Positions 43,284 through 60,629 of a stretch of DNA of 64,000 bases are shown piece by piece. Below the pieces are notes generated by a model, which had not been told where the DNA came from, searched no databases, and saw only the letters and a program-made list of their open reading frames with translations. This stretch comes from Thiomicrorhabdus sp. Milos-T2 (lineage in GTDB: Bacteria > Pseudomonadota > Gammaproteobacteria > Thiomicrospirales > Thiomicrospiraceae): contig NZ_KL370892.1 of NCBI RefSeq assembly GCF_000702325.1, forward strand, positions 1-64,000, given 5' to 3'. Both the position numbers and the translations under genes were made by a program. How positions within the stretch are numbered: position 1 is the first letter of the stretch; every line of letters starts with the position of its first letter.

Positions 43284-43769
43284 TTATTGAGCCAAAAAAA
43301 GGATTATGAATAAAGAATAAATTCCCCAAAAATGCCAATACAAAAATTTATTCTGAGAATAGCTATTGGGCTCAGAAATGTGTTTCTTAATAGCTTTTAA
43401 TAACAGATTATTTCTCTTCTGAAATTCTGACCTTTTCCTAGAACATAGGGCAAGGTTAGTTGCTTCAGTATCTTTCTTTATATCAATCAAAGCATTAGCA
43501 AAAAGGTTTGAATCTTCTTCAGATAATCTTTTTAACTCTGTTAGCAATATTCCATTATTGATCAAATACCTTTCATTATTATTTGCAGCCTTTGAGGTAA
43601 TATATAAAAGTATAAAAATTGGGTCATCATCAGGGTAATCTTTCAAGGCATCATAGATCTGTCCTTTATTTTTATCAGAACCAAGTTCTCTAAAAACCAA
43701 ATCCTTAATTGATACCTTTTCAATTTGTTCTGACTGTTTTCTTTCAAACTTCTCAAATAACATAACCAT
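43284..43769 (-). CDS. unknown protein with C-terminal membrane span (TraM-like position)
   Basis: The 161-residue protein is soluble and charged for most of its length and ends with one hydrophobic segment (about 140-158, FWGIYSLFIILFL). The ATG at 43769 has GGAGG eight bases upstream and overlaps the stop of the ATPase gene. Following a P-loop ATPase, a small C-terminally anchored protein recalls traM of the IncP traKLM set, but I see no diagnostic motif. Confidence 0.55.
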   Translation of the reverse strand: MVMLFEKFERKQSEQIEKVSIKDLVFRELGSDKNKGQIYDALKDYPDDDPIFILLYITSKAANNNERYLINNGILLTELKRLSEEDSNLFANALIDIKKDTEATNLALCSRKRSEFQKRNNLLLKAIKKHISEPNSYSQNKFLYWHFWGIYSLFIILFLAQ

Positions 43770-43770
43770 A

Positions 43771-44466
43771 TCAAGCCTCCAAAAGTTGCAGAACGATTTC
43801 AATATCTTGTCGCTTCAAAGCTTCAAAAAATTGATTTAATTGAATACGTTGTAAAACTGGCAATCTAATCAAAGCCTCTGCTAAACTCTCATCTTCTTTA
43901 ATCAGTCTCATAACATTTTCATGTATCACATCAAACTCAAAAACGGGGTACGAATTTAGTGCCTTTGAAATCTTAGCTGTGCCAAAAAAGCGATTTTTCA
44001 CGAGATAAATTTCATGAGCATATTTAGCTAATTTTCCATGCATAACCTTTTCAGCTTGCTTTATGGCAACTTCAGTTTTAAATAAGCTATAAAAGATAAC
44101 AAGACGGAAGCCCAGTTCTTTGCAAGCCATTCCAAGCAGTTCGCCCACGTCTTCTAAAACATCACTAGCCCCAGCAGGGGTATTAATAACAATGTGTTCT
44201 ACATCGGTTGAATCGATTAACTCGAAAAGCTGAGCAATTAAATCTCGAGAAGATCCCGCACCTGATATGGGTGCTGATGCGACTTGTGCATATTCAGAAA
44301 GCTCAAACCTAGGTCCCACATCAGGCTGCCCCCCATTTTCATTTGCATCTGACTCTATTAACAAAAATGGCTGTTTATTCATTTCAAAAAAACTTCCAAT
44401 CGTATTGGCAACAAAGCTTTTACCTGTGCCCCCTTTATCACCGTGGCTTAAATAAATCGTTTTCAT
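43771..44466 (-). CDS. ParA/MinD-like P-loop ATPase (TraL-like)
   Basis: The 231-residue protein has a deviant Walker A KGGTGKS (11-17) and the lines HIVINTPAGASD for Walker B, as in the SIMIBI class. TraL proteins of IncP-type mobilisation regions are of this kind, as are partition ATPases. No ParB-type partner is seen nearby. It sits between a small DNA-binding-like protein and a C-terminally anchored protein, all co-directional with overlaps or short gaps. This suggests a traKLM-like mobilisation accessory set. Confidence 0.72.
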   Translation of the reverse strand: MKTIYLSHGDKGGTGKSFVANTIGSFFEMNKQPFLLIESDANENGGQPDVGPRFELSEYAQVASAPISGAGSSRDLIAQLFELIDSTDVEHIVINTPAGASDVLEDVGELLGMACKELGFRLVIFYSLFKTEVAIKQAEKVMHGKLAKYAHEIYLVKNRFFGTAKISKALNSYPVFEFDVIHENVMRLIKEDESLAEALIRLPVLQRIQLNQFFEALKRQDIEIVLQLLEA

Positions 44467-44478
44467 AGTATTCTCCTT

Positions 44479-45036
44479 TTATTTGAAAACTTGATGTTTA
44501 ATATCGAATTTAATAATTTGTGAAATAAGAACTTCATTTTCGAAGGGTTTAGCATTGAAAAACATAAGTCCAGATTTTTCAGACTTGTAAAACATTTCAA
44601 ATATTTTGTTCTTGTAGTTAAGATGAAAATTTTGTTTTGACAACACCCAATTGATTTCTATACTGTTTATAGGTTCACCCTTAAAATAGATACAGCGTTC
44701 AATTCTTTCTGAATCCTCAGATGCTCTTCTTTCAAGAAGAGGTTGTTCTGCATTTGTTAGTATTTTTTTCGACATGAATGTTTGAGTTGAAATAGGTTTA
44801 GGTAAATCAGAAGACACTTTGGTTTTTCTTGATAAACATGTCTTCAGACTATTCGGATTTATACCTAAAGCTTGAGAGAGGCTTTTCAAAGACAACGGTC
44901 CTTTGTTTTTATGTGTTCTCAGTAAAGTGAGTATTTCAACTGAATGACTATCGACCAAATATTGAATGGTTACCCCTTTATCAAGACCGACTCTGAAAAC
45001 ATTTGATAACTGAGATAATTTGTCCTGCCACTGCAT
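44479..45036 (-). CDS. small HTH-like protein, possibly TraK-like
   Basis: The 185-residue protein has a helix-turn-helix-like stretch in its N-terminal third (LSLKSLSQALGINPNSLKTCLSRK, about 50-73, read in parts). The rest has no recognised domain. The ATG at 45036 is chosen over a GTG at 45042 because AGGAG ends six bases before it. As the first gene of a run into the TraL-like ATPase it could bind an oriT, for which 45,043-45,191 would be the place. That is inference. Confidence 0.5.
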   Translation of the reverse strand: MQWQDKLSQLSNVFRVGLDKGVTIQYLVDSHSVEILTLLRTHKNKGPLSLKSLSQALGINPNSLKTCLSRKTKVSSDLPKPISTQTFMSKKILTNAEQPLLERRASEDSERIERCIYFKGEPINSIEINWVLSKQNFHLNYKNKIFEMFYKSEKSGLMFFNAKPFENEVLISQIIKFDIKHQVFK

Positions 45037-45191
45037 ATTCACTCCTAATAAATTTCATGCTATAAATCCAAGGTACATTTTTGAATCTGAAAAGTCAGGA
45101 ATTAATTTATTTTTTTCGGAAGTTTTTAAGAAAAAATGAAAATGAAAACTAAATGAGGAGAATTTGAATCTAATCTAAACCTAATTTGAGT

Positions 45192-46184
45192 CTAATTAGA
45201 ATTCGGTACGAATGATTGATGAGAGGTTTTAGAGGATATTTTGAGAACATCCTCAGTAGCTGCTTTTACAAAGAAATCATGCTTACCATTAATTTTTCTT
45301 CCATAGAATTTACCGTTTGTTTCTACAGAACCGTGCCCCATTAAAGCTGCTATTTCTATTGAAGAAAGACCATTCCTTTTTGCATCCGCTGCAAACTGAT
45401 GCCTCGCACTATAAAGTGAAATTCGTTTGTTAATAGGCACTGACTTTAACCTATTGTTTTTACGAAACAATTGATTTAAATACTGCCTTGATTTAATAAG
45501 TTGAACATCAACGTATTTGCGATAAGCCTCTGGATTGTTATTTAACCCTGTAGAAGAAAAAAAATTAATTAACCAGTCTGCTGATTTAATCCCCTCTACT
45601 AAATCCAGTTCTTCCTTTTCTAAACTTGAAGTATTAAATTCAACTGTTCTAAACTTGCCAAAAGACCTGCCTTGAGTAGCTTTGGCATTTTTTACTTTCA
45701 AAGCATAATCATCTCTACTTAGATAAATCATTTCTGCATAAGCCCACTCTACTGGCCGTAATCCAAATACTTTTGACGCTTGAAGGATATGCAAGGCTAG
45801 CTTTGCATGAGCGCTTTTTGACACTTTCAATACTGGCTTAAGAAGATTCCATGTTTTTAAATCTATTGACTTTGCTTTTTTTGCTGAAGTACGTTTACCA
45901 AATTTGGCCCTTATCTGCTTTTTAGAGACACCACTCTGCATAAAATTGGAATTTAAACTCAAAACATCAATGTCAAAGAAATGCTTAAAGCAATACTGAA
46001 CCGCCGAACGATATAGTCGGTTGGTCGCTGGAGAAAGGGTGTTTGACTTGATATCTAACCAAACCAAAAAATTATTTTGGTGATTTTCAAATGCATAACC
46101 TGTCTTTACTTCAAACTCTTTAATTAAAGCTAAACACCTTTTTGAGTATTCTTCTATCGTTATAGAATTAATTTCAGTTGTCAT
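45192..46184 (-). CDS. tyrosine recombinase / integrase
   Basis: The 330-residue protein has a core-binding N-terminal part and a catalytic domain with Arg143 (GLRPVEW), a Lys near 168, Arg261-His262 in YSARH, His284 (LMGHGS) and the nucleophile Tyr294 (KFYGRK). The first His of the HxxR box is Tyr258, a common variant. It may integrate the element or resolve dimers. No tRNA gene or obvious att repeat is beside it, which favours a resolvase-type or non-tRNA site. Confidence 0.85.
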   Translation of the reverse strand: MTTEINSITIEEYSKRCLALIKEFEVKTGYAFENHQNNFLVWLDIKSNTLSPATNRLYRSAVQYCFKHFFDIDVLSLNSNFMQSGVSKKQIRAKFGKRTSAKKAKSIDLKTWNLLKPVLKVSKSAHAKLALHILQASKVFGLRPVEWAYAEMIYLSRDDYALKVKNAKATQGRSFGKFRTVEFNTSSLEKEELDLVEGIKSADWLINFFSSTGLNNNPEAYRKYVDVQLIKSRQYLNQLFRKNNRLKSVPINKRISLYSARHQFAADAKRNGLSSIEIAALMGHGSVETNGKFYGRKINGKHDFFVKAATEDVLKISSKTSHQSFVPNSN

Positions 46185-46300
46185 ATTTATTTCTCTTTAA
46201 ACTACTCGTTACATAGATACTTTTAATGATAGAGAAAGATATAAAGGATTAGTGGATTAAATTATTTTTTAAAAACGACGACTTAAAAATTAATTGCTCA

Positions 46301-46325
46301 AAAAATAAAAAAAACTATATATTTA
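46301..46325 (+). promoter_or_regulatory. AT-rich box 1 (AAATAAAAAAAACTATATATTTA)
   Basis: Located about 75 bases upstream of the gene at 46399. The same box occurs inverted at 49593-49615 and with small changes at 50358-50381, each time ahead of an island gene and pointing toward it. It ends in a -10-like TATATT. Confidence 0.5.
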
Positions 46326-46398
46326 GGAAAATATTCTCTGTAAATTTGAAAATAGAATCACAAGATTCAATAAATTAAATATAAAGAGAAATTTTAAA

Positions 46399-46800
46399 AT
46401 GACTAAATTAAAAGTTTGTACTGAAAATAAATTGGCTATTGAGAATGCATTACGTCAAGAGAATGGTAAAGCTAAAGCTCATACCTATAATGAGTTTTAT
46501 CAAATAAAAAGACTTGCTGAGCAAGCAGAAGCGATGCTTGAAGAATTAGGGTTGCCCAAAACCTACCGAAATAGAGCTATTTACGAAAGTAAGAGTGGGG
46601 AGTCAGTTCCAAACTCATATAAATATAGCCGAAGAGCTACGCATGTAAAACTTGTAAGAGGTAGCAAAGATTGGTTTATCACAGAAATTGAACTCTGCTT
46701 TTTGAATAAAGATTGCGGTAAGCAAAAACTGTTATTAACTCGAGTTCAAGACCAAAAACTTGTTGAAATTTTCAGAAGAAGTTACAAAATTGCAGCCTAA
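46399..46800 (+). CDS. island protein, unknown
   Basis: The 133-residue protein is basic, with an N-terminal helical part and a beta-rich second half (HVKLVRGSKDWFITEIELCFL). I do not recognise it. It is divergent from the integrase, has its own AT-rich box upstream, and ends exactly where a truncated IS256-family relic begins. Confidence 0.6.
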   Translation: MTKLKVCTENKLAIENALRQENGKAKAHTYNEFYQIKRLAEQAEAMLEELGLPKTYRNRAIYESKSGESVPNSYKYSRRATHVKLVRGSKDWFITEIELCFLNKDCGKQKLLLTRVQDQKLVEIFRRSYKIAA

Positions 46801-46912
46801 TTAATAAGGGATGTTGTTTGCCCCATTTCTCCTCTAGCGCATCCAGTGTGGTTTCCGGTTTTTGCTTGGTAGCCGCTCGATAAACAGGTGCAGTGGCTTC
46901 ACTATTTCGTAC
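46801..46912 (-). mobile_element. IS256-family transposase relic, 3' part
   Basis: The minus strand reads VYRAATKQKPETTLDALEEKWGKQ (in parts), the middle of IS256-family transposases. It continues the sequence interrupted at about 48,050, so an IS3-like element has split the gene. The part after EKWGKQ is missing. Confidence 0.75.
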
Positions 46913-48050
46913 CTAGATGATTGATATAATTTCATCATCTAAGGAGAAAATGATGGCTCAACGTAAATACGACGACAAACTGAAAAAAGACGTGATCGAA
47001 GCCGTGCTGGTTGCAAATCGAACTGCTGCAAAAGTGGCTCGTGACTATGATATTTCATCCAGTGCGTTTATTCATGGATTCACAATTACAAACAAGACAA
47101 TGATTTAGCGGTTCTTAAATTAAACAGCGAAACACCAGAACAAGAGTTAGCACGACTTAAAGCAGAAAACCGCCAGTTAAAAGAAGAGCGAGACATATTA
47201 AAAAAAGCAACGGCGTACTTTGCAAGCCAAGACAAGTAAAGTACGCCTGGATTAAGCAGCACGAAAAAGCGTTTAATTTACAAGCCATGATTCATGCACT
47301 AGACGTGCCTAAAAGCAGTTACTTTAGTTGGCGAAAATTAGCCATAAAAATCGAGAATTGATTAAAAAATCAGAGCAAGCCAAAGTCACCAATGCGTTTT
47401 ATGAATTCAAAGAAAACGCAGGTACTCGAACACTAAAAGCCCACTTAAAAAATGACATTGTCATGAGTCGCCAAAAGATTGCACCGAATCGACTTAATCG
47501 GAATTTTAATGTAATTCTACCCAATCAAGTATGGGTAGGCGACATCACCGAAATCAAGACAACGGAAGGAAAAGGTTACCTCGCTACCTATATTGACCTA
47601 TTCTCACGCAAAGTAGTTGGTTGGGATTTTGAGTCTCATATGCGCTCAGAGCTTGTTGAAACGGCCTTAAAAAGAGCACTATGGAATTGAAAGCCACCAA
47701 ATGGCTTGATGGTGCATACAGACCAAGGTAGACAATTTATCAGTGATAATTACCTCGCGCTACTCAAGAGTTGGCATCTTAAACCCAGCATGAGTCGACG
47801 AGGAAATTGTTGGGATAATGCCGTTATTGAAAGCTTTTTCAAAACATTGAAAACAGAAATGATTTACCAGCTAGTAAAGCGATTAAGTTTAAAAGAAACT
47901 CTGTGGCAAATACAGGAGTATATCGGTTACTAAAACAGTTCTCGATTACACAGCAAGAACAACAACGTTGCCCCTGCAAGTTTTGAAGCAAAGCATAGAT
48001 AATCTGTTAACACTCCAAGGCTTTAAATACCAAATAAATTCTTTCTAATT
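46913..48050 (+). mobile_element. IS3-family element, decayed
   Basis: OrfA starts at 46949 (MMAQRKYDDKLKKDVIEAVL), loses frame near 47,085 and continues to ENRQLKEERDILKKATAYFA at 47,239. OrfB then shows the rve core with GDITEIK, VHTDQG and the late Glu in WDNAVIESFFKTLKTE, but is broken by frame changes near 47,690 and 47,930. It is inserted into the IS256-family relic and is surely inactive. Confidence 0.82.
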
Positions 48051-48772
48051 CTTAGACGCCACATACTTCATTGAATTGCGGATTTGATGAATCACACAGA
48101 TCTAAACATCGGTCTCTAAGGTAGAGGCTACCAATTGCTTCTGGTGACCCTGTGAGCTCCATCAACACTGGAATAAGGATATCTTTGACGCCACGATTAT
48201 GTAGGTCGGTAAGGACTGAGAGCCAGATATACCGATAGACCCATCTAATGGCCGTGATTGACACGCTTTGACTTCAGGAATCAGTTGGTAGGTAACAGCA
48301 CTGATAGTGTACTCTGAGATTTCAATCCCGTAGAGTTCTTCAATATGGAAACGAATATCTCGATAGCTGGTGCCCAGCGTATAAAGGCCTAGAACCTTTT
48401 GATCAATTTCTGGGTTGAGCTTGGTTTGATGTTTTTGACCAGTTGAGATCCAAAAAGAGCCTTAGCGATCACGAGGTGTTTCTAATGCATATTCTTGCTC
48501 TAATTGCCCCACACCGGTTTTAACAGTCTTTTAAGAGACACCATTTTTAAGGTTTGGAGAAGACACTTGTTCTAGATACTGGTTGATTTCAGCTTTGAGT
48601 GCAGCTTCGGTAAGTTGTTTAATCAACGGTGTTAGCACACCGTATTTCGCCGTTAACCTTTTACTGGCGTGTAATTGCTCAATTGCTTTATTGAAATAGA
48701 AATCTGTTTTGCTCATGTGTCATTCCTTTTTGAATAATCAAAAATTAATGACACAGTTTTTTGAACACTCCC
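48051..48772 (-). mobile_element. IS256-family relic, 5' part with terminal repeat
   Basis: From 48,716 the minus strand reads the IS256 N-terminus (KYGVLTPLIKQLTEAALKAEI), then in shifted frames TPRDR, LGTSYRDI, IELYGIEISEYTISAV and VLTDLHNRGVKDIL. The terminal repeat GGGAGTGTTCAAAAAACTG ends at 48,772. Several frameshifts make it inactive. Confidence 0.82.
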
Positions 48773-48783
48773 GTTGCAGATAC

Positions 48784-49506
48784 CTACCTGATATTAATTA
48801 CTTTATCTTTACTAGACTTTCGGCTATCAAAAACTTTCCAAAAGCCTTGGTCTTCAAGATACTTCAAATGAGAGCCCAATTGTATATCTTGGAAGTGACT
48901 AATATGTCCAATTGCATTGAATAAAAGGTGGTCACGACCATTATCAAGCTGATCCATAACATTCTTTGCCAGTTTAGGAATGATAATATGATTATGTAAT
49001 CCGAGATTTAGTCTCGCTTCTTTGATAGTTCCTTTAGTGAAGTGGTAAACCTCAGAAACATATTTTAAAGAGAGTGAATCATATAACTTATTTTTTTCTT
49101 CTTCAACCTCATCAAAATCATTAAGTGCATTAAGCAAAACAACTCTGAAGTCTAATGATTCTAATGCTAAGAAAAAATCACCATCGTCAGTCATCAATGC
49201 CTCACTTACAATGTTATCCATCAAAACTACATAGCTGTTAAAACTTGTGTCACAAATTTTATCAAATAGCTTAGCTTGCATATCTTTCAATGACTCGTTC
49301 ATATAATAATTATTACCTTCAATAACCTTATCTGAAGAAATCATATTCAAAAAATCTTTCATTTTTGGATTCGAGTTTCTATAAGCTTCACATGTCTCAA
49401 CCCGAACCGCTTTTGAGTTATTGGCTAGCCTACTAACCGCTCTAGTTGCAATCTCAGACTTTAAACACTCATTATTACCAAATACTACGAAAATGTTTTT
49501 AATCAT
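48784..49506 (-). CDS. island protein, unknown
   Basis: The 240-residue protein starts IKNIFVVFGNNECLKSEIATRAV, which hints at a nucleotide-binding first strand but lacks a P-loop. It has an acidic middle and a basic C-terminus. I do not recognise it. It reads away from the 22-bp repeat array, and an IS256-family element has inserted right after its stop, possibly cutting it off from former operon partners. Confidence 0.55.
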   Translation of the reverse strand: MIKNIFVVFGNNECLKSEIATRAVSRLANNSKAVRVETCEAYRNSNPKMKDFLNMISSDKVIEGNNYYMNESLKDMQAKLFDKICDTSFNSYVVLMDNIVSEALMTDDGDFFLALESLDFRVVLLNALNDFDEVEEEKNKLYDSLSLKYVSEVYHFTKGTIKEARLNLGLHNHIIIPKLAKNVMDQLDNGRDHLLFNAIGHISHFQDIQLGSHLKYLEDQGFWKVFDSRKSSKDKVINIR

Positions 49507-49592
49507 TTTATATACTCTTATTTACAAATAAAAAAAATCGACTACAACTTTTTGTAACCGCTTGATTTCAATAATATGTTTTACAAATTTAA

Positions 49593-49615
49593 AAATATAT
49601 AGTTTTTTTTATTTT
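49593..49615 (-). promoter_or_regulatory. AT-rich box 2, inverted copy
   Basis: The reverse complement of box 1 (46301) over 23 bases, about 90 bases upstream of the minus-strand gene starting at 49506. Confidence 0.5.
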
Positions 49616-49679
49616 GCAGAAAGATTGTTAAAAAAATTAGAAATCTTGGTTTTAACCCAAAATATCAGAAATATTCATT

Positions 49680-49798
49680 AAGCCCTTTATAAGCCCTTCG
49701 TAAGCCCTTTTTTCACCCTTTATAAGCCCTTTTTTCACCCTTTATAAGCCCTTTTTTCACCCTTTATAAGCCCTTTTTTCACCCTTTATAAGCCCTTC
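49680..49798. repeat. iteron-like array, four exact 22-bp repeats plus partial units
   Basis: Two 11-bp units (AAGCCCTTTAT, AAGCCCTTCGT) are followed by four identical 22-bp repeats (AAGCCCTTTTTTCACCCTTTAT, in two halves of 11) starting at 49702, 49724, 49746 and 49768, then a final half unit. Units of 11 and 22 keep the same DNA face. With a primase-like gene 1.1 kb downstream and 930 bases of non-coding AT-rich DNA (49,507-50,438), an origin of replication with iterons is plausible. Not a CRISPR, since the repeats have no spacers. Confidence 0.82.
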
Positions 49799-50357
49799 AA
49801 AAGAGTTTAACTCGTATAATTTCCTAATAAAAAGGCTTTCTAAGCCACAAAAAAGATATAAAACTGACTTTATTAATGTTTTTCTCGTTCAAACGAAGTG
49901 ATTTGCAAAAATACATGAGATTTATTGAGATGACTCTAGGCACCTTATTACACACAAGCTTTCATAAGCATCAAAAGCCAAAAAAATATAGAAACAAAAC
50001 AGGATTAAAATTGGAATAGCTGTCTCTCTAACACTGTTACTAGACGCAACGTACAAGTGTATTTAGAGTGCATATTATGTCTAACTGAGTGAAATGATTT
50101 GGATCTTAGTTAATTTGAAGATAAACAATAATTACCCCAAATCCTTATTCAACAACAAATGAATTAAAAGTCACAATCAAGGTATAAGCACATAGTGGAA
50201 ATACTATAATTTTTATAATATCGAAAAATAAACAAAAACACCACCTATCTTTATATATTAGTTTTATTACAGAACAAATAATTCATCGTAGCCTAAAATA
50301 CCAGCCTTTTATCGAAACTCCCAAGACTGTAAATAATTCTTATTAAGTTTTACCTGT

Positions 50358-50381
50358 AAAATAAAAAATTCTATATATTTA
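50358..50381 (+). promoter_or_regulatory. AT-rich box 3
   Basis: AAATAAAAAATTCTATATATTTAC is box 1 with two changes, about 60 bases upstream of the gene at 50439. Confidence 0.45.
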
Positions 50382-50438
50382 CATTTTTCATTGTGATGAA
50401 ATTCTAAATAAGCCATCAAGGCAATTATAAATTTCACA

Positions 50439-50885
50439 ATGGATATATATATGAAAGATCATTTAAAACAGAAGAAGCAAACAACATTAACTGTAATTTG
50501 CAATAAAGCTTCTATTGTTAAGACACCTTTTGGTACATCAATTAAATTAACCTGCTATGACAGAGATAATAATATCGAAGAAGAATTTATTGCATTTTTC
50601 AATATAAAAAAGTATACAGAGCCCAATGCATCAGTCGGCATAGATAGTAAGTTTGCTAAATTATTTAGATTAGCAACTGGTCTAAACCCACGACGAAATC
50701 GTTACTACAAAGCACAACAGCTTATGAAAAAACTTACTTCATCTGAATGTAATCAATTCATTATAGAGTTTGATGAAGGTTCAACAATGAAGCTCCATAA
50801 TAGTTTCAAAATTAAAAAAATAAAACCACTCAACCCTGTTTATTGCGATAAATGGTTTTTAAATGGTGAGCTTAAAAGTGCCTAA
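50439..50885 (+). CDS. island protein, unknown, upstream of primase
   Basis: The 148-residue protein is beta-rich at first (TLTVICNKASIVKTPFGTSIKLTCYD), which could be an OB-like fold, then basic (GLNPRRNRYYKAQQLMKKL). A single-strand binding or replication accessory role would fit its place 17 bases before the primase-like gene, but no family is recognised. The start could also be the ATG at 50451; neither has a clear Shine-Dalgarno. Confidence 0.55.
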   Translation: MDIYMKDHLKQKKQTTLTVICNKASIVKTPFGTSIKLTCYDRDNNIEEEFIAFFNIKKYTEPNASVGIDSKFAKLFRLATGLNPRRNRYYKAQQLMKKLTSSECNQFIIEFDEGSTMKLHNSFKIKKIKPLNPVYCDKWFLNGELKSA

Positions 50886-50902
50886 TTGGGGAATAAACAA
50901 AT

Positions 50903-51952
50903 ATGAAAAAAGTGAATAAAATAAAGAGTTTGTTTTGTTCTGGCTATGGGCGTTCACACACAAACTCTTTAAAAAGCAAGTCTAGAAAGCCCTATTGTAA
51001 AATCAATATAAACTATGTTACGGAGTTAATGAAAGTCCCGCAACAGTGTGCAAAGTCGAATGCGCAATGGGCTATTTTTTCTAGCACCACTAACGAGCAC
51101 GCAAGAAGCAATCAGTACCTTAAATCTAAGGGGCTGTTCTGTGCAGTTTGGTTTGATATTGACTATACAAATTTAGACATGCAAGAACTGGCCAAAAAAT
51201 TCGAAAAGCTAGGTTATTTTGCACTTTTGTATACAACGAAAAGCGCGACTAAAAACAACCCTAGGTATCGCATAATCATACCTTTATTAAACTCTGTAAA
51301 ACATGAAGTTTATTTAGAAATCCAAAAATATTTAAAAAGTATAATTCAGGCATGGAAATGCGAAGTAGATGACTGTAGTCAAAGCTTAAATCAAATTTGC
51401 TATTTACCTAACCGCGGTGACTATTATGATTACAGAATTATTGAAGGAGAACTCATCAATTCAGCAAAGCTTGGTTTACATCAATCGCAGACTAAAATCG
51501 TTAACAAGCCAGTTGAGAAAGAAAAAATAACGGCTAGAAAAGCCGCATCATCAAAATCAATTAAAAATCTCTTAAAAATTGATAATAGCTATATTAGAAC
51601 TGTTGAACTATTCAATCAGTACTTTAAAACGGAGGATTTATTACTTAGATACGGCTATGAACTCATTAACGAAAAATGGTTATCCCCTCTGTCTTCAAGC
51701 AAAGAAGCGGGCGTGATTGTAAATAAAGATAATAGTTGGGTTAGCTATCATGAATCTGATAGAAAAGCCAATCTTGGCAAATCTCGAAAAACTGGCGGTG
51801 TTGTCTGTTGCTTTGGTAATGCTTATGACTTGTTTTGTTTTTTTGAATTCAAAAATAATCCTAAAACAGCCATTAAAGCTGCTGGAAACTCGATCATATT
51901 ACCCAACGGAATCAGCTTGACGAAATACAATCAACTTCAATTCTATAAATAA
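50903..51952 (+). CDS. primase-like replication protein
   Basis: The 349-residue protein has the pattern of archaeo-eukaryotic-type primase domains of plasmids and phages: CAVWFDIDYTN (about 75-85) with an acidic catalytic pair, YTTKSATKNNPRYRIIIPL, and QICYLPNR after an Asp-rich segment. The C-terminal half contains LSPLSSSKEAGVIVNKDNSWVSYHESD, which resembles primase C-terminal modules found before helicases. No helicase domain follows. GGGG precedes the start. It likely primes replication of the element when it is free. Confidence 0.65.
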   Translation: MKKVNKIKSLFCSGYGRSHTNSLKSKSRKPYCKININYVTELMKVPQQCAKSNAQWAIFSSTTNEHARSNQYLKSKGLFCAVWFDIDYTNLDMQELAKKFEKLGYFALLYTTKSATKNNPRYRIIIPLLNSVKHEVYLEIQKYLKSIIQAWKCEVDDCSQSLNQICYLPNRGDYYDYRIIEGELINSAKLGLHQSQTKIVNKPVEKEKITARKAASSKSIKNLLKIDNSYIRTVELFNQYFKTEDLLLRYGYELINEKWLSPLSSSKEAGVIVNKDNSWVSYHESDRKANLGKSRKTGGVVCCFGNAYDLFCFFEFKNNPKTAIKAAGNSIILPNGISLTKYNQLQFYK

Positions 51953-51962
51953 AGCATCGATG

Positions 51963-52000
51963 TTTAGACTAAATCTGATAGCGCGTCACTTTAGTCTAAA
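51963..52000. terminator. hairpin between converging genes
   Basis: TTTAGACTAAA and TTTAGTCTAAA form an 11-bp perfect inverted repeat with a 16-base loop, located between the primase-like gene and the converging phosphatase operon. No T tract follows on the plus strand. Confidence 0.5.
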
Positions 52001-52144
52001 ATCCCATAACTTTGTTATTGCCTTTTGCACAACTAAATAGACTATAATTCCGTTTAAATTTTTATACTAGCCTTTTAGAACTAAATTCTTCTAAAAAAAA
52101 TGAGTATTTATGCATATAAATTTGCTTACAACAATGTACTTTTT

Positions 52145-52789
52145 TTATTTTGTTAGCAAGTCGATAATCTTTACAGGCTTAAAGCCAATACGCTCGATAC
52201 TTACGTTAATCTCATTTTTATCAGTGTGCTCATCATTAGTGTGAACATGGCCATGAATGTTTACCTCACAAGCTTCACGTTTAAACACTTCGGCCATAGC
52301 ATCTCTAGTTTCTTTTGCATTGCCTCGCATGTAAGGATTATCACTCACTAGCGGATAGTGTGAAAACATGATTCTAAAACCGCACATTTCTCTGATCAAA
52401 CCACTAGACCACTGAGGGTCTAACAGCCAAGGCTGACAATCTTTGACTCCGTAAACTACTTCTAACTTTCCTGGGAACTCTTCTACAAACTTTTTAAGCT
52501 TATTTACCATTGGAATATCATGATTACCAAGGATTAGGATGATTCTGCCATTTAACTTCTGAATCACATCAAAACCTTTCTTGGTTGAAAAATCTCCCAA
52601 GTGCAGCACTAAGTCGCCAGGCTTAACAACACTATTCCATTGGTAAATTAGAAACTCATCAGGCTCATTAAATCCTGCTTTGCTCATAGCCTTAAGGCGA
52701 GATGGTTCATATTTATTGATATTGAAATGGTAGAAGTGAGTGTCACTTACAATCCATGTATTTTCATTTAATTCTTCTAACCAACTCAT
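52145..52789 (-). CDS. calcineurin-like metallophosphoesterase, last gene of the operon
   Basis: The 214-residue protein has all metal motifs: VSDTH (14-18), LGDFS, LGNHD, FSHYP and HGHVH. It belongs to the small YfcE/phage-type phosphoesterases. The ATG overlaps the stop of the nucleotidyltransferase gene by four bases (ATGA), a tight coupling that suggests the two work together. The substrate cannot be told from sequence. It ends a minus-strand operon that begins at 58210. Confidence 0.85.
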   Translation of the reverse strand: MSWLEELNENTWIVSDTHFYHFNINKYEPSRLKAMSKAGFNEPDEFLIYQWNSVVKPGDLVLHLGDFSTKKGFDVIQKLNGRIILILGNHDIPMVNKLKKFVEEFPGKLEVVYGVKDCQPWLLDPQWSSGLIREMCGFRIMFSHYPLVSDNPYMRGNAKETRDAMAEVFKREACEVNIHGHVHTNDEHTDKNEINVSIERIGFKPVKIIDLLTK

Positions 52790-53082
52790 AATATAATTGC
52801 TTCTTTCATTATTCTTTTTAAAGTCCTTTCAGATATCGGATAAGTCGTTGAAAGGTCAATGTTAAAACTTGAAAATGCTTCAAGCTCTGCAATCATATCG
52901 GCTAGCTCAAGATAGTCTGTTTCATTAGAGTCCTCGACAAGAATATCGATATCGCTATCTTCTCTATCATCGCCTCTAGCTACTGAGCCAAAAATAACTG
53001 GATTACTTACACTGTACTTCAAGATAATTGACTTTATCTTTTCCAAATTGACCTTATCTGCTAAAAACTCTGATGGTTTCAT
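52786..53082 (-). CDS. minimal nucleotidyltransferase (MNT-like)
   Basis: The 98-residue protein has the full nucleotidyltransferase motif FGSVARGDDREDSDIDILV, with the DxD pair intact. MNT proteins typically add nucleotides to a HEPN toxin or to tRNA. Here the translationally coupled partner is a metallophosphoesterase, not a HEPN protein, which would fit an add/remove pair acting on one target. Three 11-bp AAGCCCTTTAT-type repeats lie four bases upstream of its ATG. Confidence 0.82.
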   Translation of the reverse strand: MKPSEFLADKVNLEKIKSIILKYSVSNPVIFGSVARGDDREDSDIDILVEDSNETDYLELADMIAELEAFSSFNIDLSTTYPISERTLKRIMKEAIIL

Positions 53083-53086
53083 ATTT

Positions 53087-53119
53087 AAGCCCTTTATAAG
53101 CCCTTTATAAGTCCTTAAA
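53087..53119. repeat. three 11-bp units of the AAGCCCTTTAT repeat
   Basis: Two exact units (53087, 53098) and one diverged (53109). On the coding strand they read AAGGGCTTATA in front of the nucleotidyltransferase start, so one unit may also serve as ribosome binding site. Confidence 0.8.
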
Positions 53120-53126
53120 TTGACCT

Positions 53127-53846
53127 TTAACCTAAAATTTCAATAATCTGAGGTCTATTTTTAACCTTGTAATCACCGTTTAAAATAGAGCTATTTAAGG
53201 CAATATAGTCATGACTTTCATCTCGCCCGTAACTCTCGTGGATATGTCCAAACAAATGCCCTTTAAGGTTTTTTAATTGTTTAACTCTATTGGCTAAATA
53301 CTGACAGCCCAATGCAGACTCTTTCTCAATTATTTTTCTGTTTGATTCACACACGGTTACACCCCACAGATTTTCAGCATGTTTATCGTCAAGAACATGC
53401 TGAGCAGGACCATGCGTAATCAGAACATCTATATCATCAGGAATCGTAGACCATAATGCTTCAGCCTCATTCTCATTTAACTGAAACCCCCAATTCATAA
53501 ATCCGGGTGTATAAGGGCTTCCCCAAAATTTGACTCCATCAATAACCAATTCTTCATTTATTAACAGATGGATATCATCAGGAACGGTTAATTGTCTTAA
53601 TTCATTATCATGCTCTAACTGTTCGCACCAAACGTCATGATTACCTGGCACAAGGATTTTGTGTGGTACGTCCTTACTTTGCATCCATTCAAGTATATCT
53701 TCTACGTCTTGTTGTTTTTTTGAGTGACGCATAAAGTCACCGCTATGAACAAGAACATCAGGTTGATGCTCTTCAATTATTTTTTCTAACAAATAATCAA
53801 TGGATTCATGAAATCCGTGAGTATCACTAATATGTATAATTTTCAT
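53127..53846 (-). CDS. calcineurin-like metallophosphoesterase, paralogue A
   Basis: The 239-residue protein shows HISDTHG (5-11), HSGDF, PGNHD, THGPA and GHIHESYG, the metal set of the MPPED/Rv0805-like phosphoesterases. It is a close paralogue of the next gene (53886): same first ten residues, same KILVPGNHD, the GSPYTPG/GSPFTVQ element and the final NSSI/NSAI. Homologues act on phosphomonoesters or cyclic nucleotides. Confidence 0.86.
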   Translation of the reverse strand: MKIIHISDTHGFHESIDYLLEKIIEEHQPDVLVHSGDFMRHSKKQQDVEDILEWMQSKDVPHKILVPGNHDVWCEQLEHDNELRQLTVPDDIHLLINEELVIDGVKFWGSPYTPGFMNWGFQLNENEAEALWSTIPDDIDVLITHGPAQHVLDDKHAENLWGVTVCESNRKIIEKESALGCQYLANRVKQLKNLKGHLFGHIHESYGRDESHDYIALNSSILNGDYKVKNRPQIIEILG

Positions 53847-53885
53847 TTAAGCACCTATGCATGACCTTGAACAACAACATCAACA

Positions 53886-54548
53886 TCAATATCCTATTAC
53901 TTCTTTTACCATTACAGTATTTTCTTCCAATATTACGAAATGTGGATTTTGGGTTGGTTTATACTTTTCATCTGCAATAGCAGAGTTAATGGTTGTCAGA
54001 CCATTAACATTTTGCATTCCATGTGCAGCATGGATATGGCCATGCAAATGAAGTTTTAAGCTAGCTAATTCTGCCAGTCTATCTTTCAGGTATTTATCAC
54101 CTGTTCTGAGATTCATGGAATCTAAATCAAGCCCTCTATAAGCCCCTCCATGAGTAATCAAAACATTCGTGTCATCAGGAACTTCTTTCCAATGCACTTC
54201 TTGATTATGCTGAAAAAACTGAAATGCCCAACTAAATTCTTGCACTGTAAATGGACTTCCATAAAACTTAACATCATCTAATTCAACACCCTGGCCAATA
54301 AGCACATGCAGATTATCAGGAGCATAAAAGTTTTTTTCTTCAAAGTAAAAATCATGATTACCTGGCACAAGGATTTTGTGTTTGTGTGGTAGCTCTGAAA
54401 ACCAATTAAGGAAGTCTTTTACTTGCTCATCATTTCCTCTATCACACACGTCACCTGAATGAATAATCACATCAGCCAACGGTATTTTCTTTTGCCTTTC
54501 AAGCTCTCGGTGGTATCCATGAGTATCACTGATATGAATAATTTTCAT
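53886..54548 (-). CDS. calcineurin-like metallophosphoesterase, paralogue B
   Basis: The 220-residue paralogue of the 53127 gene has HISDTHG, HSGDV, PGNHDFYF, THGGA and GHIHAAHG. A tandem duplication followed by divergence explains the pair. The array of AAGCCCTT repeats just upstream, similar to that at 53087, could have promoted the duplication. Confidence 0.86.
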   Translation of the reverse strand: MKIIHISDTHGYHRELERQKKIPLADVIIHSGDVCDRGNDEQVKDFLNWFSELPHKHKILVPGNHDFYFEEKNFYAPDNLHVLIGQGVELDDVKFYGSPFTVQEFSWAFQFFQHNQEVHWKEVPDDTNVLITHGGAYRGLDLDSMNLRTGDKYLKDRLAELASLKLHLHGHIHAAHGMQNVNGLTTINSAIADEKYKPTQNPHFVILEENTVMVKEVIGY

Positions 54549-54552
54549 TTTG

Positions 54553-54611
54553 AAGCCCTTTATAAGCCATTCGTAAGCCCTTTTTTCACCCTTTATAAGC
54601 CCTTTCTTTCC
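54553..54611. repeat. AAGCCCTT repeat array, same arrangement as at 49680
   Basis: The order is 11-bp unit, 11-bp CGT-type unit, 22-bp unit, then a half unit, matching the start of the 49,680 array. It begins five bases from the ATG of paralogue B and overlaps the end of the gene at 54586. Confidence 0.82.
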
Positions 54612-54921
54612 ATTGCAAAATCCTGTTCTGCATTACTTCATTAGGAACAATGAATGTTAAAGGGCATACTTGTCTTAATGATTCGTAAGGTTCGCCTTTG
54701 CAGCATAAAATCTTTAATAAATTTTGATTCGAGTAAGAAGTAAGAATTTCATCCCAACTATCTATATAGACTTGGCTCATATCATTCATTTTAGTATGCA
54801 ATCGCTCTAATCCAGCCTTTCTAAAAAGAGAGGGATTTTCTTTAAATTTACGGGCAATTTCGATGTATAGAAATCTTCTGTATCGATGCTCTTTACGCTC
54901 GTTAATCATTTTTTTGAACAC
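54586..54921 (-). CDS. operon protein, unknown
   Basis: The 111-residue protein is strongly basic in its first third (INERKEHRYRRFLYIEIARKF) and helical. No family is recognised. The GTG at 54921 is chosen because AAGGG lies about six bases before it, itself part of an AAGCCCTT-type repeat (54926). The start overlaps the preceding gene by 20 bases. Confidence 0.55.
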   Translation of the reverse strand: MFKKMINERKEHRYRRFLYIEIARKFKENPSLFRKAGLERLHTKMNDMSQVYIDSWDEILTSYSNQNLLKILCCKGEPYESLRQVCPLTFIVPNEVMQNRILQWKERAYKG

Positions 54922-55285
54922 CTATAAGCCCTTCAATAAACTCAACTCTTTCATCACTGCAGGTAGCTTCAGCGCATTCAAGCTCTTCTTCTACAAGCGT
55001 TTCAAATTCTTTTAATCTGCCTGAAACATTAAATCTAATATCTGTATTTAGTGATTTTATTGATGCTGACATCGCTAATACATCCTTTAATCGCAAAACC
55101 CCATCAGCTCCCTCAACATTCCATTTAATATTTTGAATAGGAACGCCAAGAATCATTATCCCCATTGAGTTAAAAGTAACTCTTCCATCCCGATAAAAAA
55201 TAACCTGTCCTTCAGCTTTATTTTGTCCAAAATCATTACTAAAAAAAGTATGAAAATAAATTGGTTCTTTTTTGGATAAACTCAC
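54902..55285 (-). CDS. operon protein, unknown
   Basis: The 127-residue protein is beta-rich in the first two thirds (PIYFHTFFSND...EGQVIFYRDGRVTFNS) and ends in an acidic, Cys-containing helix. No family is recognised. Its GTG start overlaps the phosphatase stop by one base (TAGTG), indicating coupling with the PPP-type gene at 55285. Confidence 0.55.
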   Translation of the reverse strand: MSLSKKEPIYFHTFFSNDFGQNKAEGQVIFYRDGRVTFNSMGIMILGVPIQNIKWNVEGADGVLRLKDVLAMSASIKSLNTDIRFNVSGRLKEFETLVEEELECAEATCSDERVEFIEGLIGVQKND

Positions 55286-56082
55286 TATTCAATACCTGTT
55301 TTAAGAGAATGTTTTGCCTCTGAAATTTTCGTTTCTCGCCAATCTTTATTTTTATCTAGCCTTGCTAAAAGTTCTTTAACACTTAAGACGGTTAATCTTT
55401 TTGACTTATCAAAGGTGTCAATAAAAGCACTAAACGTCTTAAAAACTGGCTTTTCAAAACAAGTATGACCATGCACCGTGTAATCAATATCAAGTAGCGT
55501 TCTCTCAATCCCTTTGTCATGAAACTCAGCATGTCTTCTAGTGCGTAAACAAAGCTCACGAGTATCACGTTTTTCTAAGTCATTTACAAAGTCGTTCCAC
55601 GAGTTACCGTAGCGACTTGGAACGCCTGCGTGACTAATACCTATGCGATAGCCATGTGTTTGTAGTTCAATCACATAAGGCAACGGCATTAATAGCTTTG
55701 CTAGATATTCCCTGCATTGTTCATCAAGCTTAAAAAACCAAGCGCCTTCTATTTTTCGATGTAATTCCGCAGGTTCATAATGGCTATATCTGTTATAAAG
55801 TTGAATGCGCTCAGGCTCAAATTGGTCAAGAATAAATTGGTCATGATTACCTCTCACTGAGAAGAACCAGTCATGCTCTAGCAGTTGAATGACTTTCTCA
55901 CTCTCCAATCCTCTATCGCCTAAATCACCAACCGCAATCAAACGGTCATTATCAAAGTCAAAGCCAACCTCTTTAAGTTGAGTCATTAACTCAGAATATC
56001 GACCATGCAAGTCACCTACAATAAAATCTTGGCCTTGATGATTTAGTTGCATAATTTGAATGTATAAACTATTGCTATTCAT
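55285..56082 (-). CDS. PPP-family serine/threonine-type phosphatase, paralogue 1
   Basis: The 265-residue protein has the lambda-phosphatase/PrpA-type motifs GDLHGR, GDLGDRG, RGNHDQ, ISHAG and HGHT. Bacterial and phage enzymes of this group dephosphorylate proteins, 2',3'-cyclic nucleotides or dinucleoside polyphosphates. It is a paralogue of 56628 with the same length. The start overlaps the exonuclease stop by eight bases. Confidence 0.87.
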   Translation of the reverse strand: MNSNSLYIQIMQLNHQGQDFIVGDLHGRYSELMTQLKEVGFDFDNDRLIAVGDLGDRGLESEKVIQLLEHDWFFSVRGNHDQFILDQFEPERIQLYNRYSHYEPAELHRKIEGAWFFKLDEQCREYLAKLLMPLPYVIELQTHGYRIGISHAGVPSRYGNSWNDFVNDLEKRDTRELCLRTRRHAEFHDKGIERTLLDIDYTVHGHTCFEKPVFKTFSAFIDTFDKSKRLTVLSVKELLARLDKNKDWRETKISEAKHSLKTGIE

Positions 56083-56647
56083 AGTTGTTACTCTTTATCT
56101 CCTGAATCGCATTCCATGTCCAAATATGCTTTAAAGTATCGCTATCTGCTTTATGTGCAATTAATCCATAAACCTTAAACTTTTTTTCTGCCATAATTTG
56201 GGCTTTCACTGCAATAGAAGAAGGTATCTTTTGCTCGTAAGCTAATGTTGAGATTAGCTTAAATTCAGGTATAGGGTAGTCCTCACCAGTTAGTCTCGCT
56301 ACATCATTTAGTAGCATGTTAAGCCATGCCATATCTGCTTTACTGTCTGCATAGATAACTTTGCCATTCAGGTCATCAGAGACTTCACGAGCGACCGATT
56401 CAGGATTAATTCCGTATTCATTAATGTATCTCTTGCTAAAGCCATGAATTTCTTGAGAGTCGAAACTCCAAAGATGCTCTTCATTGTTCCATTCTGCTAA
56501 TGGCTTGATTAAAAAGTACTTCAAATCTTCCTCGCAAGAGCCGTAAGCCACTTGAAGAGGGAAGCCATTGATTGAACTTGCTTCAAAATCAATAAATATT
56601 GGCTTTTCCATTTTGGTGTTTAGATAATCAAGCATTTCTTTGCTCAT
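56075..56647 (-). CDS. DEDDh-type 3'-5' exonuclease
   Basis: The protein (190 residues from the ATG at 56647) has FIDFEAS for exonuclease motif I, ADSKADMAWL for II and AHKADSDT for III, in which His is followed five residues on by Asp, the DEDDh set. The family trims DNA or RNA 3' ends (DnaQ, RNase T, oligoribonuclease). The longer GTG reading from 56668 is possible. The gene sits between two PPP phosphatase genes, overlapping both, so its product probably acts with theirs. Confidence 0.78.
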   Translation of the reverse strand: MSKEMLDYLNTKMEKPIFIDFEASSINGFPLQVAYGSCEEDLKYFLIKPLAEWNNEEHLWSFDSQEIHGFSKRYINEYGINPESVAREVSDDLNGKVIYADSKADMAWLNMLLNDVARLTGEDYPIPEFKLISTLAYEQKIPSSIAVKAQIMAEKKFKVYGLIAHKADSDTLKHIWTWNAIQEIKSNNYE

Positions 56648-57425
56648 CAACCAACCTAAATACTTCACTTACTTCCAAAATGTTTAATTTAGTAGAACCC
56701 GATGAAACATCAATAAACACCTGATTGTTGTAGGCTATCGGCTCAGCAACACTTGAATGACCATGAACTGTTGCACCGATGCCATCGAGCCACCTTTGTT
56801 CAACCGGTACACCTTCTTCCCAAGGTCTTTTTCGATAATAATCATAAAACTCACCGATAACATCTCGTGTCCAAATGCACTCTTCACGAACTGACGCATC
56901 GGTTTCTAAGGCACTTAGAAATTCGCCCCAATTCTTGAATTCAAGGGGAACGCCAGCGTGTGAAATACCTAAGTTTCCATACTCAGTCTCAAGGGTTATT
57001 GCGAGAGGCAATTTCTTAAGAAGGGTCTTAATTCTTAATCGAGCAGTATCACTTCGCACTTTTTCAAACCAACTTCCACCATTGTAGTTATGAAGCTGAG
57101 CAGCATCCCATTTAGTCTTTTTTTTAGCATCTTCAGGACTACAACAAGGAATGTCTCCTGGGAAGTCGTATCGATTAATTAGAAGCTGTTCATGGTTGCC
57201 ACGAATAGAATAGAACCAATTTTTTTTGTATAGTAAATCGAGGATTTTCAGATTATGTTTTCTACCATCAATTAAGTCGCCTACAGCAAACAAACGGTCT
57301 TTAGATTCATCAAAATTCACGCTATCCAAAGCTTCTTTAAATTTTTTCAGTCTTGCGTGAATATCGCCAATCACGAAATCACGCCCGTTTTTATTAATGG
57401 GTAATTTTTTGTGAAAATTGGGCAT
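56628..57425 (-). CDS. PPP-family phosphatase, paralogue 2
   Basis: The 265-residue protein has GDIHAR, GDLIDG, RGNHEQ, ISHAG and VHGHS. The second motif lacks the usual Asp-Arg-Gly, reading DGRKHN, so the active site is slightly changed. It is a duplicate of 55285, with LGISHAGVP and TVHGH kept. The ATG at 57425 has AAGGAAG upstream; the longer frame to 57551 is only overlap with the previous gene. Confidence 0.85.
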   Translation of the reverse strand: MPNFHKKLPINKNGRDFVIGDIHARLKKFKEALDSVNFDESKDRLFAVGDLIDGRKHNLKILDLLYKKNWFYSIRGNHEQLLINRYDFPGDIPCCSPEDAKKKTKWDAAQLHNYNGGSWFEKVRSDTARLRIKTLLKKLPLAITLETEYGNLGISHAGVPLEFKNWGEFLSALETDASVREECIWTRDVIGEFYDYYRKRPWEEGVPVEQRWLDGIGATVHGHSSVAEPIAYNNQVFIDVSSGSTKLNILEVSEVFRLVDEQRNA

Positions 57426-57798
57426 TATCGAACTTCCTTTTTGCTTCCCCTGTAAATTCAGTGTTGTAAGATTCAAGTTGAAAAAGGATATATCTAATTT
57501 CTTTTTCATTATCTGATTCGACATGATTAGGATTGTTTTTCTTTTCATCATCGTAAGGCTCGACGAGCATCCAATACAAATCCACCGCCTCTTCTACGCT
57601 GTTGAATTCTTGAGATCCATAAACTATGTCGTATACCACAGTCTTACCTGTTTCTGAAATAGTCACATAACAAGTCAAACCTTTATTTAGATTTCTCTGT
57701 TTAAACTTAAATTTACGTGCATTTTTTTCTTTTTCATCTTTGCATTGTTTGTCTAACTTCAGAAACTCCTCGTATAGACTTTCTAAGCTCTGTTTCAA
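57394..57798 (-). CDS. operon protein, unknown
   Basis: The protein (134 residues) is rich in Lys and Glu, with a coiled-coil-like N-terminus (LESLYEEFLKLDKQCKDEK), a beta middle (LTCYVTISETGKTVVYDIVYGS) and an acidic C-terminus. No family is recognised. A TTG start at 57798 is chosen because GGAGG lies five bases before it; a TTG at 57810 overlaps that site. It overlaps genes on both sides. Confidence 0.5.
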   Translation of the reverse strand: MKQSLESLYEEFLKLDKQCKDEKEKNARKFKFKQRNLNKGLTCYVTISETGKTVVYDIVYGSQEFNSVEEAVDLYWMLVEPYDDEKKNNPNHVESDNEKEIRYILFQLESYNTEFTGEAKRKFDNAQFSQKITH

Positions 57799-58210
57799 GA
57801 GGTCCTCCAATTATTTTCCCGCAATAAAGTCCCCGCTTTGCATAGTAGCAAGGTGTTTCCTTCTTTTTAATCGCCTTTACTACCTCACTTTTTGTTCCGA
57901 AAGTAGGCTCTGATAAAGAAAAAGAGCTTGTAAAGAACCATTCTGGCAAGTCATCAAGAATATCGTACATTTCAAATAATTCTTCAGTTAATCCAGAAAT
58001 CAATGCTGCTTCTAACTCTAGAATTTGATCACCTTCTACTTCATCCAGCTCAAAAGGCTTATCCTTAAATAAATCACGAATATCACCTTCATAACGATTT
58101 ATATGAAGACATATCCCATCTAAAAACTCTTTATTCCAATAAGACAACGGAAATGGATCTGTGTCATTCTTAATACATTCAAAAGTTTCTTTTGCTGTCC
58201 TTATGTTCAT
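57734..58210 (-). CDS. first gene of the phosphatase operon, unknown
   Basis: The 158-residue protein is acidic (DILDDLPEWFF) with a short basic Cys-containing end (CYYAKRGLYCGKII). No family is recognised. A strong Shine-Dalgarno (AGGAGG) precedes the ATG. Its leader shares an 88-base gap with the divergent gene at 58299, so one promoter region serves both. Confidence 0.6.
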   Translation of the reverse strand: MNIRTAKETFECIKNDTDPFPLSYWNKEFLDGICLHINRYEGDIRDLFKDKPFELDEVEGDQILELEAALISGLTEELFEMYDILDDLPEWFFTSSFSLSEPTFGTKSEVVKAIKKKETPCYYAKRGLYCGKIIGGPLETELRKSIRGVSEVRQTMQR

Positions 58211-58298
58211 ATTTTTCCTCCTAAATAAACACCGTTAACCTATATAGTAAATCATCAGGTATAATTAGGGCAATTAATTTTAATTTTTTGGTTACAAC

Positions 58299-59063
58299 AT
58301 GAACTATTTAGATTTTGAATATGAACTTTATCAGTATATTTTTAATGAGGCTAATTGCTTATGGAAATCAAAACAATATTCAGATATCTACCCTCCTTCA
58401 CATTTTGAACAAAAAGGTGCTAAGTATCTATCGTACAAAATAAAAGCTTTTTTTGATATATCCAACATTGCTGGTATTGAATCTGAAATAGAGCGCCTAC
58501 AAAAATTTTATCTAGAACACTATGCAGGGAACACCCATAAAACAAAAAAAATGCCCGAACGCTTTCCTATTATTTTTGACACCAATGAACATCAAATAGA
58601 ACAAGCACAAATAAGGTTTGAGAATGCTTTTTCATCAAAAAAAATAAAAAATATTAATGCAATTTACAACTTGGGGACAGTGTCAAGAAAAGAACTATCG
58701 CGCATTCAAAATAAGTTAAAAGAATCTAATGCCAATATACGTATACGTAGTAAACATGCTTCTGAAGATTCTTATGAGCCACCAGCAAGAGACAGTGATG
58801 AGTTTTTCTGCTATCTAAGAAAAAGTGAATTAATCAATCAATTTGGGGAGGATGCACAAATACGAAAAAAGACGGGTAAAAGATTTAAAGCAATTTTCAA
58901 AACTAATTCTGACACAATTCGAACCAATGCTGGTTTTTATTTATTTCATCAAAGTTTTGATGTACAAGAAATCGACTTTCCTTTAAGAAAAAGAGCAACT
59001 AAAGAACATCGCATCAGCATACCTGGATTTAGTGATATTCAAATTTCATCACCTGGACTGTAA
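58299..59063 (+). CDS. unknown protein divergent from the phosphatase operon
   Basis: The 254-residue protein is basic, rich in Lys, Arg, Ser and Asn. It has an aromatic N-terminus (NYLDFEYELYQYIFNEANCLW) and a middle stretch NLGTVSRKELSRIQNKLKESNANIRIRSKH that could be a DNA-binding helix pair. No family is recognised. Being divergent from the operon, it may be its regulator; that is inference. A -10-like TATAAT lies at 58260. The 230 bases after it hold one CCAGGCCTGG copy and no gene. Confidence 0.55.
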   Translation: MNYLDFEYELYQYIFNEANCLWKSKQYSDIYPPSHFEQKGAKYLSYKIKAFFDISNIAGIESEIERLQKFYLEHYAGNTHKTKKMPERFPIIFDTNEHQIEQAQIRFENAFSSKKIKNINAIYNLGTVSRKELSRIQNKLKESNANIRIRSKHASEDSYEPPARDSDEFFCYLRKSELINQFGEDAQIRKKTGKRFKAIFKTNSDTIRTNAGFYLFHQSFDVQEIDFPLRKRATKEHRISIPGFSDIQISSPGL

Positions 59064-59217
59064 AGGTTTAAACTTACACAGACGGTAATCAACTATTTAT
59101 CTATTCATCTTATTAAAGCAATCATTAATAAAATCAATATAACCCTACTCTAACCAGCTGATAATAAATAATAAATTGACAATGCTAATATATTCAATAA
59201 TCTATTCATTATAGTTA

Positions 59218-59227
59218 CCAGGCCTGG
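59218..59227. repeat. CCAGGCCTGG palindrome, copy 13, first after the island
   Basis: Intergenic, extended to TACCAGGCCTGGTTA like the copies at 107 and 917. It is the first copy after an 18-kb gap and lies about 30 bases before the TnpB element. Confidence 0.85.
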
Positions 59228-59254
59228 TTAAAAGCATTCAAACAAAGAGTTATT

Positions 59255-60529: not shown

Positions 60530-60629
60530 ATGAATATCGTAACAGTATTCAATTAATGACACAATCTAAAACAGGCTACGCCTGTTGTGCTTATATCCCC
60601 GACCTGAAGGGCGGGGTTTTACGAACTGA

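Follow-up and report, generated by a model that had tools for sequence, protein, structure and literature searches.

An 11-bp tandem array in AT-rich DNA of a Thiomicrorhabdus contig may be an amplified gene linker

Genomic setting

The window, by which we mean the whole 64-kb stretch of DNA analysed here, is the opening 64 kb of a contig of 443 kb in a genome of 2.66 Mb. At 26.6-38.8 kb, nine of the ten proteins scanned gave Pfam matches (penicillin-binding, adenylate kinase and capsule families among them), and none of these ten matched a mobile-element family in Pfam. The segment from about 40 to 60 kb is a mosaic that holds toxin-antitoxin genes, a MobD-like operon, a recombinase-like gene, insertion-sequence remnants, a tandem repeat array, a primase domain, a cluster of metallophosphoesterase (MPP) genes and an OrfB/TnpB-type gene. 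Four of these components, the tyrosine-recombinase-like gene, the MobD-like operon, the phage-type primase domain (part of a 349-aa protein) and the insertion-sequence remnants, fall within about 8 kb. One remnant is IS3-like, supported by an rve match; the stretch at 48.0-48.7 kb, labelled from reading, we take to be IS256-like. The earlier note had proposed an integrated plasmid-like element with an iteron origin, and the recombinase-like gene, MobD-like operon, primase domain and insertion-sequence remnants bear out the mobile setting; the iteron-origin part was not supported. The genes that matter for what follows are these:

43284..45042, minus strand: three-gene operon for a 187-aa protein with a weak HTH match, a 231-aa MobD/StbB-like ATPase and a 172-aa protein
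45192..46184, minus strand: tyrosine-recombinase-like protein of 330 aa (phrog_1 integrase, E 8.8e-8; Pfam match below the cut-off)
48784..49506, minus strand: 240-aa protein, by sequence comparison a distant relative of the MobD-like ATPase encoded at 43771-44466
50439..50885, plus strand: 148-aa protein with no assigned function (protein searches of the genus genomes)
50903..51952, plus strand: 349-aa primase-like protein, corresponding to the N-terminal part of a primase-helicase (protein searches, alignment to a protein of genome G019)
52145..58210, minus strand: cluster of five MPP-domain genes and one nucleotidyltransferase-domain gene (ORF list, Pfam)

MPP clusters occur in differing gene orders, at 52145-58210 here and at L045:8250-13577 in G025, which is another species of the genus. 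Beside the G025 cluster stand two very long genes with no assigned function (L045:1381-7987; 715 and 1498 aa) and genes that, from reading, are presumably type I restriction-modification-like. On two Marinobacter plasmids (L075, L076) an MPP gene stands behind one annotated as a 3'-5' exonuclease. The OrfB/TnpB-type gene of the window lies at 59297-60562 and has a Cas12f1-like TNB domain.

Structure of the array

The array occupies part of the non-coding DNA between the 240-aa and 148-aa genes, where the following features were found:

49507..50438, no strand: AT-rich non-coding stretch surrounding the array (ORF list, base composition)
49539..49560, minus strand: terminator-like hairpin separating the array from the 240-aa gene (hairpin scan)
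49679..49799, strand not assigned: tandem array of 11 units of 11 bp (exact-repeat search, Tandem Repeats Finder)
49834..49846, minus strand: terminator-like hairpin immediately beyond the other side of the array (hairpin scan)

Seven of the 11 units contain AAGCCCTT and the other four TTCACCCTTTA; together they form four exact 22-bp pairs. The 22-mer TAAGCCCTTTTTTCACCCTTTA, which starts at 49701, 49723, 49745 and 49767 and spans 49701-49788, is thus itself a pair of diverged 11-mers. Tandem Repeats Finder reported the array at 49679-49797 with a period of 22 (5.4 copies, 93% matches) and also with a period of 11 (10.8 copies); its score of 196 was the highest of the 14 rows returned for the 64-kb window. 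No repeated exact 22-mer appeared in 1000 first-order Markov sequences built from the 932 bases of 49507-50438.

Much of the earlier description was accurate. The AT-rich non-coding region of about 930 bases measures 932 bp, has a GC content of 27.5% compared with 38.8% for positions 1-40000, and contains no ORF of at least 60 aa in the ORF list; the four exact 22-bp repeats are present; and the ORF list confirmed both the primase-like gene 1.1 kb downstream of the array (ORF start 50903) and the divergent flanking genes (48784-49506 on the minus strand, 50439-50885 on the plus strand). Over its length, the 932-bp stretch was matched in none of the 31 other genus genomes. In the same intergenic stretch, 49593-49615 forms an exact, AT-rich 23-bp inverted repeat with 46302-46324, which likewise lies between divergent genes; the pair scored 46, and the best of 200 Markov pairs reached 42.

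An array between divergent genes, with an 11-bp phasing that sets the units on one face of the helix, might serve as an operator for a regulator of the two genes, of a type other than stb. We consider this unlikely, for promoter-like sites were not in excess in 49400-50500 (four found, 5.5 expected) and the same unit stands at start codons elsewhere. Terminator-like hairpins numbered two in that interval against 0.4 expected, and Rfam returned nothing at gathering score across 45000-60000.

Tests of a replication origin

Tandem repeats of a suitable length in AT-rich non-coding DNA are what an iteron origin would offer, and the array presents them. The remaining evidence leaves the iteron-origin reading weak, as no Rep family, exact DnaA box or lasting GC-skew switch was found and the primase comes without a helicase half. 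Pfam identified no Rep initiator family in 40 window proteins, ten of which were also searched with NCBIfam and ten with PHROGs; proteins of 148, 172, 187 and 240 aa remain without a family assignment. The checks that bore directly on the proposed origin gave it no support. The skew is negative on both sides of the array and shows no lasting switch, small positive values being confined in that part to 46-48 kb and 51-52 kb. The 932-bp stretch lacks an exact TTATNCACA; it has three sites that differ from it at one position, a class that occurs at chance level over the window (88 sites, 84.8 expected). As for related free plasmids carrying the array together with the primase, positions 49507-51952 matched none of the 72,556 plasmid or 50,697 phage records at the DNA level.

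The primase and 148-aa genes

In G019 a 723-aa protein shares 39% identity over its first half with the 349-aa primase, and its second half gives an AAA_25 match below threshold. The gene in the window stops before the region corresponding to this second half and so falls short of a complete primase-helicase. G019 is the only one of 57 other genomes searched with a relative of the primase, and no relative was confirmed in the collections of genome contigs or viral contigs or found by sequence in the PDB. Among the 50,697 phage records, 196 match the primase and 82 cover at least 80% of the query, all at less than 60% identity (the corresponding gene of Vibrio phage 168E36-1 is 2736 bp long), and seven of the 72,556 plasmid records match, none over 80%. 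The 148-aa protein also has a single relative in the 31 other genus genomes, in G013, where it lies behind an integrase and an AlpA gene. G013 thus combines integrase, AlpA and a relative of the 148-aa gene, and G019 combines integrase, AlpA and primase-helicase; AlpA, present in both, had no match among the Pfam-scanned proteins of the window. Given the make-up of these elements and the truncation of the primase, the 148-aa and primase genes of the window are probably a remnant of the replication module of such an integrase/AlpA element. Single-sequence structure models were weak for the 148-aa protein and for the 240-aa protein (mean pLDDT 36.0 and 45.7 respectively).

The array could be imagined as the replication origin or a control site of a satellite-like element, serving the 148-aa and primase genes, which we regard as unlikely; that the site is bound by a protein of the element, whether an initiator, the primase-helicase or an AlpA-type regulator, we judge equally doubtful. 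Such an origin would be a relic or would need help in trans, the primase being without its helicase half. Besides the AT-rich flanks and divergent genes, the evidence in its favour comes from G013, where a 50-bp CCCTTTT-rich repeat (L072:7633-7682), with cores spaced about 10-11 bp apart, lies upstream of AlpA and the 148-aa relative in the orientation of the array. This repeat scored 34 against the array over 51 columns, compared with a maximum of 32 in 500 Markov sequences, all of which it beat, and it is this likeness that lifts the element-site reading to the standing we give it. In a ranking of 2083 half-overlapping windows of genus DNA, from which the known array places were left out, only two G025 places (40) stood above it; the next scores, 31 and 30, are close to that of G013, which weakens the case. 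In addition, TTCACCCTTTA reads GGGTGAA on the minus strand and resembles the GGTGAA core of the P4 type I iteron; among the papers listed in a literature search on these iterons, none was to the point by title. Against an element site, the G013 and G019 loci contain neither AAGCCCTT nor a CCCTT run at 10-12 bp, no site comparable to the G013 repeat was seen in G019, and the array unit is found also at the start codons of MPP genes. The missing Rep family and helicase half and the lack of plasmid and phage DNA matches count against this reading as well. Behind the 148-aa relative in G013, at the contig end, lies a further tandem repeat of 108 bp in 7.3 copies (L072:9465-10254).

The MobD/StbB-like operon

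The 231-aa ATPase carries KGGTGKS and aligns with a plasmid mobD protein at 31% identity over 167 residues; the gene of that protein, like that of the ATPase, has a small gene on either side. The 240-aa protein encoded next to the array is distantly related to the 231-aa ATPase (E 2e-5 in a single comparison, E 0.00195 in a genome search). In plasmid R388, according to PMC3098194, the stbDRs are two sets of five 9-bp repeats with 2-nt spacing, which gives an 11-bp period; the array stands before the stb operon, and smaller numbers of stbDRs occur in other promoters. The window has both an StbB/MobD-like ATPase and repeats of roughly 9 bp with an 11-bp period, and together with the small genes flanking the ATPase and the kinship of the 240-aa protein they make it conceivable, although in our estimation unlikely, that the array is a partition or operator array of this kind to which the 187-aa protein binds. 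Positions 45030-45200, upstream of the gene for that protein, hold no such array, and the mobD plasmid lacks a tandem array at the corresponding place. The 187-aa protein, encoded where an StbA-like protein would be expected, gave nothing beyond an HTH match below threshold in Pfam and shows no similarity to its plasmid counterpart. Moreover, G025 has the 11-mers, yet the 187-aa and 231-aa proteins are unmatched in the 31 other genus genomes.

The repeat unit at gene junctions

The unit recurs within the MPP cluster, where a fifth exact 22-mer lies at 54574-54595 and further 11-mer groups at 53086-53116, 54552-54604 and 54926-54933. The copies bearing on the origin of the array are:

49679..49731, no strand: 53-bp block, array copy (51/53 against 54552-54604)
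53086..53116, no strand: group of three 11-bp units preceding the gene with the nucleotidyltransferase domain, which starts at 53082 on the minus strand (Tandem Repeats Finder, spacing list)
54552..54604, no strand: other copy of the 53-bp block, preceding the MPP gene with its start at 54548 on the minus strand (alignment, 51/53)
54926..54933, no strand: single AAGCCCTT (minus strand AAGGGCTT), with AAGGG 7 nt before the GTG at 54921

The two copies of the block are identical at 51 of 53 positions, and the second includes the fifth exact 22-mer as well as the stop codon of the gene at 54586-54921. With up to three mismatches allowed, a two-unit 20-mer was found 13 times in the genome; 12 of these places fall within 49.6-54.6 kb of the window. 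When up to two mismatches were allowed across 32 genus genomes, matches were restricted to three: this genome (five places), G025 (two) and G018 (one). The two G025 places are 2.3 kb apart and both lie inside an MPP cluster. Among the papers listed in a full-text literature search for AAGCCCTT, none was related by title. In viral contigs (L022-L032), 11 stretches carry three AAGCCCTT with an 11-bp period, compared with 2, 2 and 0 for three control patterns; several of these stretches share flanks, leaving about seven kinds by eye, and seven of the 11 have no overlapping ORF of at least 60 aa.

For the spacing list we took every AAGGGCTT in the window (n = 17) and in L045 of G025 (n = 8) and measured the distance from AAGGG to the starts of ORFs of at least 60 aa. 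Six groups of units stand shortly before a start codon, and in four of these AAGGG lies exactly 7 nt from it (the genes at 54921, with GTG, 54548 and 53082, and the L045 MPP gene at 11857). The other two fall outside the ORF filter: the array is 4 nt from the ATG of an 8-codon frame, and the L045 group at 9537 is 14 nt from an ATG adjoining MPP fragments. One further occurrence, at L045 16446, is 5 nt before a possible TTG, a spacing that we take to be chance. In the MPP cluster the unit reads AAGGGCTTATA on the coding (minus) strand, and at two places it also holds the stop codon of the upstream gene (the gene at 54586-54921 and a 176-aa gene of L045).

An amplified linker

The strand, place and spacing of the units are explained if the unit is a Shine-Dalgarno/stop linker, and the account we favour, at slightly less than an even chance, is that the array is a slippage-amplified copy of such a linker from the MPP cluster. 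The 11-bp unit before the starts of the cluster would supply a Shine-Dalgarno core (AAGGG) 7 nt from the start; a linker of about five units, the 53-bp block, would have been copied to, or left behind at, 49679-49731; and steps of 22 bp would then have been added, most likely through replication slippage. The present-day array has no sizeable reading frame directly behind it and most likely plays no part in replication, and we infer that it is without a present function.

In favour of this account are the clustering of the 20-mer at 49.6-54.6 kb, the agreement of the two 53-bp blocks, the position of both G025 places inside an MPP cluster, and the same unit standing at gene junctions at a fixed distance in four of six gene-adjacent groups. 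On the other side, the array itself and one L045 group depart from the 7-nt spacing, the array precedes no sizeable gene, only one of the 31 other genus genomes (G025) carries the 20-mer more than once, and the similar repeat in G013 is not near an MPP gene found in that genome.

A linker origin might predict a decayed MPP gene behind the array, but DNA tests did not support one: alignment scores were 18 and 19 against null means of 21-22, and 24 of 300 random flanks scored as high. The ATG after the last unit opens MNISDILG-stop, which by eye resembles an MPP start (HISDTHG).

With terminator-like hairpins on both sides, on the minus strand, there is room for a small RNA. CsrB-type RNAs titrate CsrA, and by analogy a minus-strand transcript of the array might be a short decoy RNA ending at the hairpin at 49560-49539, which we hold to be very improbable; it is just as improbable that a translational repressor would be titrated away from the AAGGGCUU leaders of the MPP cluster by the 11 AAGGG-type motifs of such an RNA.

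Should the linker origin be correct, a false origin call is removed and the way in which such calls arise is exposed: a tandem array, AT-rich DNA and a nearby primase would be insufficient for calling an origin, and a genome-wide search for the single unit would point to another source. A linker consisting of a Shine-Dalgarno core and sometimes a stop codon within one 11-bp unit, set before different genes in two species, would then be a small, testable case of gene-junction multiplication in accessory clusters.

Comparison with known systems

Iteron origins such as those of R6K, RK2 and pPS10 have repeats of 17-22 bp, arranged in tandem, within or close to AT-rich DNA (PMC4980987). The array shares with them the combination of tandem repeats and AT-rich DNA, but its true unit is 11 bp and is found at the start codons of other genes, and here no Rep gene is recognised and there is no exact DnaA box. 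In the PLE satellites of Vibrio cholerae, origin repeats are bound by a RepA_N protein (PMC7145576); these, too, are repeats in non-coding DNA of an integrated element, whereas Pfam and NCBIfam revealed no RepA_N family here. With the R388 stbDRs the array has in common the 11-bp period, a MobD/StbB-like operon nearby and smaller sets at other genes; it differs in not lying upstream of the operon, in its sequence (that of the R388 repeat is TTGCATCAT) and in having no recognisable StbA relative. Short tandem repeats that have grown by slippage at ribosome-binding sites are a known kind, and a literature search combining Shine-Dalgarno, tandem repeats and slippage yielded nothing relevant in titles and the beginnings of abstracts. 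Unlike such repeats, the longest array here adjoins no sizeable gene's start codon; like them, its unit has a Shine-Dalgarno core at a fixed distance from starts.
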